In this document: positions 13,211 through 19,600 of the stretch, piece by piece
Position numbering within the stretch: the stretch's first letter is position 1
Layout of the letters: each line of letters begins with the position of its first letter
Virus record (IMG/VR): IMGVR_UViG_3300038701_002576
Location: 1 to 36,421 of that record
DNA length: 36,421 nucleotides
From: a virus
Strand: one strand, 5' to 3'
Made by a program: the position numbers and the translations under genes
Notes under the pieces: generated by a model
Databases searched by the model: none
The model's input: the letters and a program-made list of their open reading frames with translations, nothing else
Told to the model about the DNA's origin: nothing

Positions 13211-13580
13211 CTCCTAGTAACCCCTTATTTTCGTAGATATTGCCGATCACCTCGATACCACGATGCCTTACATATAGGGGGCTGCATAGATCATCATATT
13301 TCTTTCCTAATATAGCAAAGCAGTACCCCTTACTTATAATAATTTTGATTAAACCTTTGTCGTTCACTATATCCCCCTCATAAATCTCCACACCATTCTT
13401 GCCCTCCATGCTAGTGTATCGCATCAACCCAATCTCATCAAAACTAAATTCTGACATGTCACCCTCTTCTTCATCTACCAAATAGCACTCAATCGTTTTT
13501 GTATCAAAATTAATCCGCTCTACCTTTACCATTATCTTATAGGCCTTTATCCAAGCCCTAAATTTAATTTTCCTATTCAT
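13197..13580 (-). CDS. YopX-family protein
   Basis: 127 residues from the ATG at 13580, preceded by GAGGTGC as ribosome site. Hallmarks of the YopX family are the N-terminal RKIKFRAWIK, the central GLMRYTSMEGKNGVEIYEGDIV and the C-terminal EVIGNIYENKGLL. YopX proteins are very common in phages of low-GC bacteria; their biochemical role is not established and they sit among early genes. The start overlaps the preceding stop by 8 bases. Confidence 0.88.
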   Translation of the reverse strand: MNRKIKFRAWIKAYKIMVKVERINFDTKTIECYLVDEEEGDMSEFSFDEIGLMRYTSMEGKNGVEIYEGDIVNDKGLIKIIISKGYCFAILGKKYDDLCSPLYVRHRGIEVIGNIYENKGLLGGESA

Positions 13581-13776
13581 CTTGCACCTCATCTAACCAT
13601 TTAAAGACCCCTTCCATCGTCATTTGACCTTCTGGATTCTCTAGGTACTTGTTATACGCATCGATTGATCTCTGAGACGCTAGGTATACATCACCTATCT
13701 CATCTGTAATGGTTATCGTTCCTTCTGGGAGGTTCTCAATCTCTTCTTTGGTAAGTGGTTTTGGTTCCTTAAGCAT
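13573..13776 (-). CDS. Hypothetical small protein, first gene after promoter P1
   Basis: 67 residues starting MLKEPKPLTKEEIENLPEGT, acidic, with a helix-strand-helix look. It is the first gene downstream of promoter P1 and lies a few bases after the shared TTACTTTTTAA leader, with no Shine-Dalgarno. The LTKEEIENLPEGT start is frequent in small phage hypotheticals. Function unknown. Confidence 0.6.
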   Translation of the reverse strand: MLKEPKPLTKEEIENLPEGTITITDEIGDVYLASQRSIDAYNKYLENPEGQMTMEGVFKWLDEVQDE

Positions 13777-13784
13777 ATATATAA

Positions 13785-13832
13785 TTAAAAAGTAATATAT
13801 GTGATCATATACGACTACTGACTTGGTGTCAA
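13785..13832 (-). promoter_or_regulatory. Early promoter P1 with shared leader
   Basis: On the minus strand: -35 TTGACA (13832-13827), 17-bp spacer ending GTA, -10 TATGAT (13809-13804), then CACATATATTACTTTTTAAT. It is the most diverged of the four copies in the -10 but keeps the exact spacing and leader. It drives the 13776-12668 genes. Confidence 0.82.
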
Positions 13833-13869
13833 ATTGATGTTCCCCTCAGGTTTGAGGGATCAAACTATA

Positions 13870-14340
13870 AAAATAGACCCCTTAAAAGGAGCCTATAAAC
13901 TGGCAATGTTCCCACAAAACCGTTTTATTGCACTTAACTTATTAACTATTTACTGCCCGAAGATAGTTTAAAGCATTTTAGTATAGTACAACTAATACCC
14001 TTTTTCAAGGATCATACTTTTTAGGTTGTTGTGAGTTCTTTCACAACCTTACCGCAAGCGTTTGGTTTTATTTTAAACTAGGTATCCTAGTTGGTTCGGT
14101 ACTAAAGTACCTTCTGGGAGGGGAGTTTTCGGTGAATAGTTGATAATATTGAGTACATGCCTCGCCTTTAACCCTAGCCTCACCTAGCGCATAAACTTCC
14201 CCCTCAAAAGGAACTCTATTGTGCGGCCACCCAAGTTAAACCATACGGCCTAACTTCGTCGGTGGCTAAGCTGCTACCCAGGTAAGACTAGTGAGCAATT
14301 AACTCAGCACAGCATGTAGCTGACTTTCATCTTACCGGAT
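13870..14340 (-). ncRNA. Candidate large structured RNA in the 650-base gene-free region
   Basis: No ORF of credible length occupies 13833-14433. Instead many hairpins are visible: 14028-14047 (GTTGTGA/TCACAAC), 14076-14092 (AACTAGG/CCTAGTT), 14098-14111 (GGTAC/GTACC), 14226-14266 (GCCACC/GGTGGC enclosing AAGTTA/TAACTT) and 14281-14336 (GGTAAGA/TCTTACC). A possible weak terminator lies at 13878-13891 on the minus strand. The minus strand is chosen because the tRNA-like element just upstream reads that way. Size and setting resemble GOLLD/ROOL-type phage RNAs, but I could not match a family consensus. Boundaries are approximate. Confidence 0.45.
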
Positions 14341-14343
14341 CTC

Positions 14344-14421
14344 CTACTGTGGGATTTGAACCCAGCCTGCATACACAGACCCACCAATATATCGCCAATT
14401 GTAGATGCGTATATCCAGTAG
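14344..14421 (-). ncRNA. tRNA-like element with T-arm but no recognisable anticodon arm
   Basis: The minus strand has a perfect T-arm core GGGTTCAAATCCC (UGGG/CCCA stem, 14350-14364) stacked directly on an acceptor-like stem CUACUG/CAGUAG (14416-14421 with 14344-14349). Between them, no 5-bp stem with a 7-base loop fits an anticodon arm. The intervening ~50 bases instead fold into one long irregular arm (AUACGCA/UGUGUAU, then CUAC-AAU/AUU-GUGG). Acceptor plus T-arm plus one long helix resembles a tRNA-mimic such as the tmRNA tRNA-like domain more than a tRNA. No CCA is encoded. Confidence 0.5.
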
Positions 14422-14433
14422 TAGTACATTCTA

Positions 14434-14838
14434 TCACACCAACTTCTCAACCTCTATTGGCCTTATAAGATAAACATCACTAACCCTAAAGACATGGTCT
14501 CCATTCTTAACAAAGTCACGACCAACCTCAAGTACCTCCACTATTTTAGATGCCAAACCACTATCCACTAACATAAGCCCATGCCCTTCTCCAGCCTCTT
14601 GCTCAAAGCGAACCTCATAATAGCCTTCATTAAAAAAGTAATCTTTATGACTAAATCCTATATCCATATAACTTAAACTAAAAACTAAAGTATTTAACCC
14701 AACCCGTTTGAGAGCCAGAGGGATCCAAATAGGAGCTTTCCTACTTATAAATATATCAATGTAGTAACCGGTTTTTATGTCCGTACATTTAAGCTTGCTA
14801 ACTGTCCCAAACTGGTCATCTCTTATTCGGTTGCCCAA
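14434..14838 (-). CDS. Hypothetical protein, first gene of the leftward unit
   Basis: About 134 residues if translation starts at the TTG at 14838 (GNRIRDDQFGTVSKLKCTD...). No in-frame ATG lies upstream before a stop, and no strong Shine-Dalgarno marks the start, so the N-terminus is uncertain. Mixed alpha/beta, no membrane segment, ends SDVYLIRPIEVEKLV. It lies immediately upstream of the tRNA-like element and structured RNA and would be cotranscribed with them. No family recognised. Confidence 0.5.
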   Translation of the reverse strand: MGNRIRDDQFGTVSKLKCTDIKTGYYIDIFISRKAPIWIPLALKRVGLNTLVFSLSYMDIGFSHKDYFFNEGYYEVRFEQEAGEGHGLMLVDSGLASKIVEVLEVGRDFVKNGDHVFRVSDVYLIRPIEVEKLV

Positions 14839-14975
14839 ATAATTTCATATGTGCCAGAAGGCGTGACCCTTAGCGCGAAAGGTTTATCACATGCACTTTT
14901 AATCCCAACCCGTATATCGATCATCAGGATCCTAACTATTATGCCACTATAATTCTTATACTCCCAGAGTTATGG

Positions 14976-15004
14976 AGTGGACTGGCAAGCCTGTTAGTGG
15001 ACTG
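14976..15004. promoter_or_regulatory. Two 9-bp direct repeats exactly 20 bp apart
   Basis: AGTGGACTG occurs at 14976-14984 and again at 14996-15004, a spacing of two helical turns, so both face the same side of the DNA. They lie between the sRNA terminator (15015-15042) and candidate -10 boxes for leftward transcription (TATAAG and TATAGT around 14953-14960) that have no good -35. This is the expected layout for an activator binding site upstream of a weak promoter. No protein partner is identified. Confidence 0.5.
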
Positions 15005-15014
15005 AGGTATCCAC

Positions 15015-15042
15015 GAAAAAACCCCGGCGGTTAAGCCAGGGT
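15015..15042 (-). terminator. Intrinsic terminator of the small RNA
   Basis: Minus strand: ACCCUGGC pairs completely with GCCGGGGU (one G-U pair) around a 6-base loop, followed at once by UUUUUU. This is one of the two cleanest rho-independent terminators in the window. It insulates the leftward unit from transcripts starting in the control region. Confidence 0.88.
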
Positions 15043-15120
15043 CGGTTCGATGAATTCTCTAAAAGCACCACAATTAAGTGATGTGAAGATATCTAATTGT
15101 ATCTCTTTTAGCAAATTCAT
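15015..15120 (-). ncRNA. Candidate ~105-nt small RNA with own promoter and terminator
   Basis: Transcription from the promoter at 15127-15155 would begin near 15120 and stop at the intrinsic terminator 15015-15042. The transcript's 5' segment (15118-15105) pairs with 15065-15052 in 13 of 14 positions, GAAUUUGCUAAAAG with CUUUUAGAGAAUUC. Inside this stem a second hairpin is possible (CAAUUA/UAAUUG, or CAUCAC/GUGGUG as an alternative). No ORF with a start and ribosome site is present. A regulatory or decoy RNA is the simplest reading. Confidence 0.7.
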
Positions 15121-15126
15121 ACAACT

Positions 15127-15155
15127 AATATAGAGAAGAAAATTTGGGATGTCAA
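15127..15155 (-). promoter_or_regulatory. Promoter of the small RNA
   Basis: Minus strand: TTGACA (15155-15150), 17-bp spacer, TATATT (15132-15127). It is near-consensus sigma70 and lacks the shared TTACTTTTTAAC leader of P1-P4, so this RNA is probably regulated differently from the early operons. Confidence 0.85.
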
Positions 15156-15159
15156 GAAA

Positions 15160-15193
15160 AACAGTAAAAGGCCCAGACATTTTCGTCCGAGCC
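15160..15193 (-). terminator. Second leftward terminator
   Basis: Minus strand: GGCUCGGAC pairs over all 9 positions with GUCUGGGCC around a GAAAAU loop (15170-15193), followed by UUUUACUGUUUUU. It ends just before the small-RNA promoter and would stop any leftward transcript from the 15.2 kb operator region, leaving a product of about 55-60 nt from the extended -10 box at 15225. Confidence 0.72.
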
Positions 15194-15224
15194 TAATCTG
15201 ATATTACTTCTTAACGAAGGACCT

Positions 15225-15279
15225 ATTATAGCATCTGGATCTTCTCAATCTTTGAGAAATTTTTCTCAATCTTTCTCAT
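15225..15279. promoter_or_regulatory. Palindromic operator with half-sites and an extended -10 box
   Basis: A perfect 8+2+8 palindrome TTGAGAAAttTTTCTCAA lies at 15252-15269. Further TTCTCA half-sites are at 15243-15249 (TTCTCAA, 20 bp from the same half of the palindrome) and 15274-15279. On the minus strand TGCTATAAT, an extended -10, is at 15233-15225, so the palindrome overlaps its -35 position. The site is also ~90 bp upstream of the rightward promoter P3. This looks like a repressor operator of the early control region; the repressor is not identified. Confidence 0.6.
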
Positions 15280-15356
15280 TATACACAGGCAGGGATGCAG
15301 GTGAGACGAGAACACCTTGCACAGCAAGCACGGTTCACTTTCTCATACTTTTCTCC

Positions 15357-15405
15357 TTGACTTTTCTTTCAATTATGTATATAGTTACGTATATTACTTT
15401 TTAAC
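15357..15405 (+). promoter_or_regulatory. Early rightward promoter P3 with shared leader
   Basis: -35 TTGACT (15357-15362), 17-bp spacer ending GTA, -10 TATAGT (15380-15385), then TACGTATA and TTACTTTTTAAC. The transcript would start near 15392 and reach the ATG at 15415 without a Shine-Dalgarno. It drives the recombination gene cluster. Confidence 0.87.
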
Positions 15406-15414
15406 AGTTATTTT

Positions 15415-15762
15415 ATGGAAAGACACATTAAAGTTTCCAACACTATAGGTAAGGTTATGAAATATGGTTATATCCAAGATTCAGACCTTAAAGCTCTGCG
15501 CAAATCAGAATTAGGAGATATCATTAAAGTTATTGCAACTGAGAATAAAGAAGCACAGGGTGCAGTAGTTGAGCTGGCATCATCAGTTGAATTAAAAAAT
15601 TATAATAGACTTATGAGCAATGCACGTAAATTGCAGAACCAAAGCCTGGTGTATAAGTTCAAACAACTTATCAACGGATTCCCTTGCTTGTTTGAGGGTA
15701 TAGTTATGCCTACATCAGGTGTAGCAGAGAATGAAGATGACTTTTATATTACAGTTAATTAA
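15415..15762 (+). CDS. Hypothetical first early gene
   Basis: 115 residues (MERHIKVSNTIGKVMKYGYI...). The basic, helical N-terminal two thirds are followed by an acidic C-terminus (ENEDDFYITVN). It is the first gene after P3, with no Shine-Dalgarno, and its stop lies one base before the ATG of the ERF gene, so they are cotranslated. The acidic tail and position suggest a nucleic-acid-processing partner of the annealing protein, as an inference. No family recognised. Confidence 0.65.
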   Translation: MERHIKVSNTIGKVMKYGYIQDSDLKALRKSELGDIIKVIATENKEAQGAVVELASSVELKNYNRLMSNARKLQNQSLVYKFKQLINGFPCLFEGIVMPTSGVAENEDDFYITVN

Positions 15763-18038: not shown

Positions 18039-18078
18039 GTTGTTAGTAGTTAATTTAGATCTTTAAAATAGAATTTTG

Positions 18079-18239
18079 TTTGAGAGGTTGGTGAAAGATA
18101 GACACTACAGCTAGCTAGAACTTACTGCTAATAATGGCAGTACTGAACTATGGTCGAGATTACGACCTGTAAGGTCCCCACGAAGTAGTAGCGTTAGAGG
18201 GTGACCGTGCAAGGGTGCAAGTCCCTCGCACCTCTCAAA
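18079..18239 (+). ncRNA. Multibranched structured RNA upstream of the 18.28 kb gene
   Basis: Closed by a perfect 10-bp stem, TTTGAGAGGT (18079-18088) with ACCTCTCAAA (18230-18239). Inside are ACTAC/GTAGT (18104-18108 with 18185-18189), hairpin TACTGC/GCAGTA (18123-18142), hairpin GGTCG/CGACC (18152-18167), and a T-arm-like hairpin GTGCAAGGG/CCCTCGCAC (18207-18231, one mismatch). The last hairpin shares bases 18230-18231 with the closing stem, so the two compete. A terminator follows at 18239-18265. It resembles a riboswitch or attenuator, or a stable ncRNA; no known class was recognised. Confidence 0.62.
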
Positions 18240-18265
18240 GAGAATTTTATTCTCTGGTTTTATTT
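18239..18265 (+). terminator. Terminator/attenuator hairpin
   Basis: AGAGAAT-TTT-ATTCTCT (18239-18255) followed by GGTTTTATTTATT. It lies between the structured RNA and the ATG at 18281. The 3' portion CTCTGGTTTTATTTATTA is nearly the same as that after the hairpin at 18667, indicating a recurring intergenic element. Confidence 0.62.
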
Positions 18266-18631: not shown

Positions 18632-18682
18632 ATACTCACAGGGGGTAAAAGCTCTGTGTGAGTATTTAATACTCTGATTTTA
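18627..18682 (+). repeat. 56-bp intergenic hairpin repeat, copy 1
   Basis: Matches 19287-19342 with two differences in 56 bases. It contains an 11-bp stem, AAATACTCACA with TGTGAGTATTT (18630-18667), whose 3' arm also takes part in a second overlapping hairpin GAGTATT/AATACTC followed by TGATTTTATTT. Mutually exclusive hairpins with a U-rich end resemble an attenuator. It overlaps the stop of the previous gene. Confidence 0.75.
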
Positions 18683-19067: not shown

Positions 19068-19276
19068 TAAATAACTTTGGTTATGGTTCTGGTTCTGGTT
19101 ATGGTGATGGTTCTGGTTCTGGTTATGGTTCTGGTTCTGGTTATGGTTCTGGTTATGGTTCTGGTTATGGTTCTGGTTATGGTTCTGGTTCTGGTTATGG
19201 TGATGGTTCTGGTGATGGTTCTGGTTATGGTTCTGGTGATGGTTCTGGTTCTGGTGATACCGAGTTGATAGACTAG
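19055..19276 (+). CDS. Gly-Ser-Tyr-Asp repeat protein
   Basis: 73 residues. After METVVNNF, about 60 residues are GY, GS and GD dipeptides, ending TELID. GGGAG precedes the ATG. Such low-complexity chains are flexible and may form condensate-like or elastic segments. Here it accompanies the DUF6948 gene, possibly as an extension partner. Every repeat Gly uses GGT, Ser TCT, Tyr TAT and Asp GAT, showing recent tandem expansion of the DNA. Confidence 0.7.
   Translation: METVVNNFGYGSGSGYGDGSGSGYGSGSGYGSGYGSGYGSGYGSGSGYGDGSGDGSGYGSGDGSGSGDTELID
19079..19258 (+). repeat. Hexamer minisatellite, 30 units
   Basis: 180 bases built only from GGTTAT, GGTTCT and GGTGAT units. Because the unit is 6 bp, length change keeps the reading frame of the 19055-19276 gene. 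It is prone to slippage in replication and to assembly collapse, so the true copy number may differ. Confidence 0.95.
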
Positions 19277-19286
19277 ATCCCACACA

Positions 19287-19342
19287 ATTAAATGCTCACA
19301 GGGGGTAAAAGCTCTGTGTGAGTATTTAATACTCTGATCTTA
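19287..19342 (+). repeat. 56-bp intergenic hairpin repeat, copy 2
   Basis: Second copy of the 18627-18682 element, 660 bp downstream, with the same 11-bp stem (one change, AAATGCTCACA, making a G-U pair) and the same loop. It lies after the Gly-Ser repeat gene and before the 19367 gene, so the DUF6948 cassette is bracketed by direct repeats. Confidence 0.78.
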
Positions 19343-19366
19343 CAAAATAGAAGAAGGTTAAATGAT

Positions 19367-19600
19367 ATGCAAAAGTCAGTATGGTTAGTAGCAGAGTTTT
19401 TACGTAGTGCTGCACCCGAATACGGTACCGCCGTGGATATCGATGTAAAGCTAAATGAATCTATCGATTTACTTGTGGATTCAAAAGCGGATCCTAAGGA
19501 ACGTCGGGATTTAATTTCAGCTTGTCGCAAACATGCTGCTATCCTTCGTGGTCAACTTCGACGTTATCTTGCTGGTTTGGATGAGGCAGCAAATGCTTAA
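19367..19600 (+). CDS. Hypothetical early protein
   Basis: 77 residues (MQKSVWLVAEFLRSAAPEYG...), mostly helical, with a basic segment SACRKHAAILRGQLRRYLAG. GAAGG precedes the ATG by 9 bases. It overlaps the next gene by 8 bases. Codon and GC use here appear slightly higher than in neighbours. No family recognised. Confidence 0.62.
   Translation: MQKSVWLVAEFLRSAAPEYGTAVDIDVKLNESIDLLVDSKADPKERRDLISACRKHAAILRGQLRRYLAGLDEAANA

Follow-up and report, generated by a model that had tools for sequence, protein, structure and literature searches.

A gene-free stretch in a phage genome is here tentatively interpreted as an orphan structured RNA, read from the minus strand as the 3' part of a leftward transcript and carrying at its 5' edge a tRNA-like element that may serve in its processing. 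The window analysed is the whole of IMG/VR virus record IMGVR_UViG_3300038701_002576 (36,421 bases); its source is an unclassified phage, with genes for head, portal, terminase, tail and ERF recombination proteins. The candidate stretch has no coding signal, shows an excess of folding on the minus strand, harbours an acceptor/T-arm pair that is rarer than chance would give and is bounded by promoter-like and terminator-like sequences (table 1); that the RNA is transcribed, processed and endowed with any function is what we infer.

Table 1. Features of the candidate RNA and of its surroundings, in order of position in the window (z, folding score against dinucleotide shuffles).
Feature	Positions	Strand	Description
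67-aa ORF	13573-13776	- (leftward)	followed by the YopX gene; flanks the ORF-free stretch
Promoter	13804-13832	-	TTGACA-17-TATGAT, then TATATTACTTTTTAA; reads into the next leftward operon
Terminator-like hairpin	13873-13896	-	AUAGGCUCCU-UUUA-AGGGGUCUAU, then UUUU; z -3.9; likely 3' end of the RNA
Domain 2	13900-14128	-	four simple hairpins and a longer interrupted stem; z -3.1 (plus strand -1.9)
Domain 1	14129-14442	-	closing helix 14442-14431/14139-14129, then a long branched core; z -4.6 (plus strand -1.2)
Domain 1 core	14142-14331	-	z -4.1 (plus strand -1.5)
Stacked hairpin	14226-14266	-	GCCACC/GGUGGC, with inner AGUUAGGCC/GGUUUAACU at 14255-14234; pairing probability 0.90-0.95
tRNA-like element	about 14339-14427	-	acceptor CUACUG/CAGUAG (six pairs); T-arm UGGG-UUCAAAU-CCCA
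134-aa ORF	14434-14838	-	TTG start, uncertain; codon usage coding-like; no known relatives
Branched hairpin and terminator-like hairpin	15020-15125	-	GACCCUGGC...GCCGGGGUU-UUUU; z -7.3, the strongest among the tested stretches
Promoter-like site	15127-15155	-	TTGACA-17-TATATT, 11/12; TATATTACTTTTTAA, carried by four other promoters of the phage, is missing

Locus and transcription signals

The original prediction had placed some 600 bases without a gene between a leftward ORF and a promoter, and this description holds: 13777-14433 (657 nt) is devoid of any ORF of at least 60 aa, and the short ORFs inside it have negative or near-zero codon-usage scores and so rate as non-coding, while both flanking ORFs score positively. 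A conserved overlapping ORF was the finding that was to speak against an RNA; no ORF of this size is present, nor any coding signal. Conceptual translations of the stretch gave no convincing match to PHROG (best E 0.015), and this result, together with the codon scores, led to the rejection of a gene remnant. Neither tandem repeats nor iterons were found in the ORF-free stretch, and a type III antitoxin of the tandem-repeat kind was discarded on the former ground. The candidate RNA has the orientation of both flanking genes, and the stop codon of the 134-aa ORF lies within the closing helix of its first domain. The start of the 134-aa ORF is overlapped by a 33-aa ORF (14823-14924, minus strand) that has AGGA as a putative ribosome site; the 134-aa ORF has a TTG start only, and a frameshift or a sequencing error may separate two parts of one gene.

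Four promoters of the phage share TTGAC(A/T), a 17-base spacer, a TATA-type -10 box and TATATTACTTTTTAA, namely those at 15357 and 17203 on the plus strand and at 13832 and 12664 on the minus strand. This 15-nt motif, placed right after the -10 box, is reminiscent of a phage-specific regulatory signature. Promoter sites matching 11 of the 12 consensus positions number four in the window, as compared with 1.2 expected. The leftward unit that contains the RNA would most plausibly be driven from the promoter-like site at 15155-15127. The structured element directly after this site (15020-15125) is possibly a leader or attenuator, or else a small RNA in its own right, about 105 nt long; its strong terminator-like hairpin, at 15043-15020, stands between that promoter and the RNA, and this counts against the proposed transcript. 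At the opposite end, in favour of a structured RNA, a terminator-like hairpin is found exactly at the 3' end, with the promoter of the next operon after it; since that promoter reads into the next operon, it marks the end of the unit to which the RNA would belong. Transcription directions and GC skew both switch at about 15 kb, and the divergence region (14839-15414) is likewise rich in hairpins. The divergent promoter region also contains a direct repeat, TTCTCAATCTTT, in two copies 21 bases apart (15242-15274), which resembles repressor operators.

Minus-strand folding and the tRNA-like element

Over the stretch as a whole (664 nt), the folding z-score against dinucleotide shuffles is -4.7 on the minus strand and -2.7 on the plus strand; a lighter shuffle run over 13865-14440 gave -3.4 and -1.8, respectively. 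The asymmetry between the strands is clearest in domain 1 and in its core, where the helices include one of 8 bp (14318-14311/14161-14154) and one of 14 bp with G-U pairs (14291-14278/14187-14174). Domain 2 is AT-rich (36% GC) and its structure is moderate only. G-U pairs, possible in the minus-strand RNA alone, occur in the main helices; the inner helix of the stacked hairpin has two of them, so that it is fully paired on that strand only. Both the stacked pairing at 14226-14266 and the presence of at least five hairpins had been anticipated in the original prediction; on the minus strand hairpins are found at 14266-14226, 14213-14197, 14111-14098, 14092-14076, 14047-14028, 14012-13997 and 13896-13873, each with a pairing probability of about 0.75-0.99.

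The weight of these scores is set by controls. In an analysis that included folding windows of 320 nt, control stretches at 19521, 19841 and 33921, which are wholly or largely coding, reach z-scores of -3.5 to -4.0, so that the candidate has a real excess of folding, but one that other parts of the genome share; the genuine ROOL RNA of L. salivarius pMP118, on the other hand, scores only -1.4. The folding z-score is therefore neither specific nor sensitive for RNAs of this kind, and folding strength by itself is weak evidence.

The tRNA-like element expected at one side of the stretch was also recovered, as an acceptor stem and T-arm at 14425-14340, i.e. the 'top half' of a tRNA at the 5' edge of the candidate RNA; in the predicted structure a single long hairpin replaces the D and anticodon arms. 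A strict search (T-loop UUCRA, GC-rich 4-bp stem, six contiguous acceptor pairs and tRNA spacing) finds one site in the window, at 14360 on the minus strand, against 0.0067 expected per shuffled window, with criteria that were set post hoc; a looser form of the acceptor/T-arm combination is expected 1.35 times per window by chance. A run of 22 nt is identical to the 3' end of the tRNA-Val of Serratia phage Slocum. A tRNA gene was nevertheless rejected, because the tRNA model RF00005 (gathering threshold 29 bits) gives no match in this element even at E<=10, ARAGORN at its default settings calls no tRNA in the region, and the class II tRNA, Tyr(AUA), that ARAGORN calls at the relaxed 83% threshold belongs to a type of call made as frequently in shuffled sequence. 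When the long transcript adopts its lowest-energy folds, the T-arm strand is paired elsewhere (alternative GCUGGGUU/GAUCCGGU), so that the T-arm fold and this alternative compete.

Known RNA families and competing explanations

Rfam returned no match at the gathering threshold over the whole window and, at E<=10 on 13700-15500, no noteworthy one. Neither GOLLD (RF02032, a model of the conserved 3' region; gathering threshold 150 bits) nor ROOL (RF03087; 99.1 bits) was matched at gathering, at E<=10 or in a record-wide family search. As the record-wide search for ROOL matched none of its control genomes, a separate positive control was added with cmscan, by which the ROOL RNA of L. salivarius pMP118 was found at 130.4 bits (E 2.6e-28). 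The resemblance that had suggested these families is one of setting. Both are RNAs of phages and prophages, often near tRNA islands, that form cages (PMC12286853). The candidate is comparable to GOLLD, a large RNA of 500-800 nt or more often located near tRNAs or containing them, and to ROOL (model of 574 positions) in length and in its phage setting. It differs from GOLLD in the missing match to the conserved model and in its neighbour, which by ARAGORN and RF00005 is a tRNA-like half and not the adjacent or internal tRNA gene of that family, and it differs from ROOL in that the search that recovers a true member leaves it unmatched. Thus, of the original prediction of a large structured RNA next to a tRNA-like element, the general reading stands as a fair one, on the minus strand, whereas membership of GOLLD or ROOL is unsupported, the covariance-model search proposed along with it, with these and other models, having given no family match. 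Despite the similar size, the phage setting and the tRNA-like neighbour, a divergent GOLLD or ROOL RNA assembling into a cage is largely refuted and must be regarded as very improbable.

Other likenesses are looser. In phage K two long intergenic RNAs of 635 and 1154 nt, lnc001 and lnc002, are encoded on the minus strand and have been tied to GOLLD and ROOL by their location near tRNAs and their abundance only (PMC9241854); they were seen by RNA-seq, whereas the candidate described here is known from sequence alone and is likened to them by description. The mascRNA/menRNA family (RF01684) and the tRNA-like domain of tmRNA resemble the candidate in joining an acceptor stem and T-arm, the D and anticodon arms being reduced or missing, to a longer RNA. 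However, mascRNA, the best tRNA-like Rfam match, scores 17.3 bits (E 3), far below its threshold of 42.5, and default ARAGORN finds no tmRNA; at low thresholds its calls run into the hundreds across the window.

Relatives of the locus were sought through the terminase, portal, major head protein, 134-aa ORF and YopX. In the collections searched, which may lack records very near the window, identity to relatives is at most 38% for the terminase and 43% for YopX, and there are no relatives for the major head protein or the 134-aa ORF; the phage has no close kin there. When the region was compared as DNA with phages and plasmids, including at E<=10, the only matches were of 22-31 nt, due to chance or to tRNA T-arms. 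Phages, plasmids, some 250 related loci, the IMG/VR scans and one genome scan yielded no homologue of the RNA, which weighs against the orphan-RNA reading, the related loci having been searched by blastn and nhmmer and a subset also by single-sequence covariance models; the exact T-arm pattern had no match, and the exact junction pattern three chance ones.

Among the competing explanations, an ordinary structured spacer is possible and nearly as likely as an orphan RNA. The stretch would then comprise the 3' untranslated region and terminator of the 134-aa gene followed by the promoter/operator of the next operon, with no separate RNA, and its hairpins would stabilise the mRNA or stop transcription. 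The positions of the terminator (13896-13873) and of the promoter (13832-13804) fit this exactly, comparable folding is found in other stretches, coding ones included, and the divergence region too abounds in hairpins; yet about 540 nt is a lot of 3' untranslated sequence for a phage with a compact genome of 36 kb, the organised, strand-specific fold of domain 1 lies far ahead of the terminator, and an acceptor/T-arm pair is nothing that a terminator requires. That pair would instead be a relic if a class II tRNA gene, the Tyr(AUA) of the relaxed ARAGORN call, had decayed next to a non-functional spacer. Phage tRNAs are frequently lost and degraded, and the good T-arm and acceptor stem, the 22 nt shared with the 3' end of a real phage tRNA and the class II call at the 83% threshold are all in keeping with such a history. 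As shuffled sequence yields as many ARAGORN tRNAs at that threshold, the covariance model is empty at E<=10 and the folding of 14331-14142 is left unaccounted for, a decayed tRNA gene is nonetheless improbable.

An element acting at the level of DNA, such as a replication origin or a packaging site adjoining the packaging genes, could be imagined, because at the place of the stretch, about 15 kb, both the direction of transcription and the GC skew switch, and the leftward block that follows it contains the terminase and portal genes. The strand asymmetry of the folding and its dependence on G-U pairs, selection for which is not expected in DNA, and the lack of iterons and tandem repeats make this quite improbable.

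Proposed transcript and further elements

If the orphan-RNA interpretation is retained, a transcript would start from the 15155-15127 promoter, proceed through the leader/terminator hairpin, the 134-aa ORF and the RNA, and stop at 13873, the structured RNA itself spanning roughly 570 nt, from about 14440 to 13873 on the minus strand. The acceptor/T-arm helix is a recognition feature of RNase P or RNase Z; therefore, with the tRNA-like element acting as a processing signal at the 5' edge, a cut there would release the folded RNA from the mRNA, after which it might persist as a stable phage non-coding RNA. Such a freed RNA would be analogous to GOLLD, ROOL and the phage K lncRNAs, no relatedness being claimed. 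That it represents a new class of large phage RNAs, in which a tRNA mimic within the transcript attracts the tRNA-processing enzymes of the host and so frees the RNA from its mRNA, is unlikely. If true, an unrelated example in a small phage would be an independent case beside GOLLD and ROOL, abundantly expressed RNAs that form homo-oligomeric, RNA-only cages of unknown function, and a tRNA mimic used as a processing handle would offer a testable route for making large phage RNAs. With one orphan sequence at hand, its present value is that of a candidate for RNA-seq and for a renewed search once relatives appear.

The same phage may encode a second tRNA-like non-coding RNA, at 18072-18243 on the plus strand, with a folding z-score of about -3.3 and no Rfam match. 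A closing helix UUUGAGAGGU/ACCUCUCAAA and a Leu-tRNA-like start, GGUUGGUGAAAGAUAGACAC, are accompanied by a T-arm-like hairpin, GGG-UGCAAGU-CCC, and further hairpins fill some 80 nt in between. Shortly after the 17203 promoter, the segment 17318-17400 (plus strand) folds into a long hairpin of very high stability (-38 kcal/mol, z -5.0) that contains an inner palindrome, CTCATATGAG. Near-identical hairpins, CTCACAGGGGGTAAAAGCTCTGTGTGAG-TATTTAATACTC, follow two neighbouring genes at 18637-18680 and 19297-19345 (plus strand) and are perhaps repeated terminators or processing sites. A long run of GGTTCTGGTTATGGTTCTGG-type repeats occupies 19070-19270 on the same strand, and one of its frames would encode Gly/Ser/Tyr-rich repeats.
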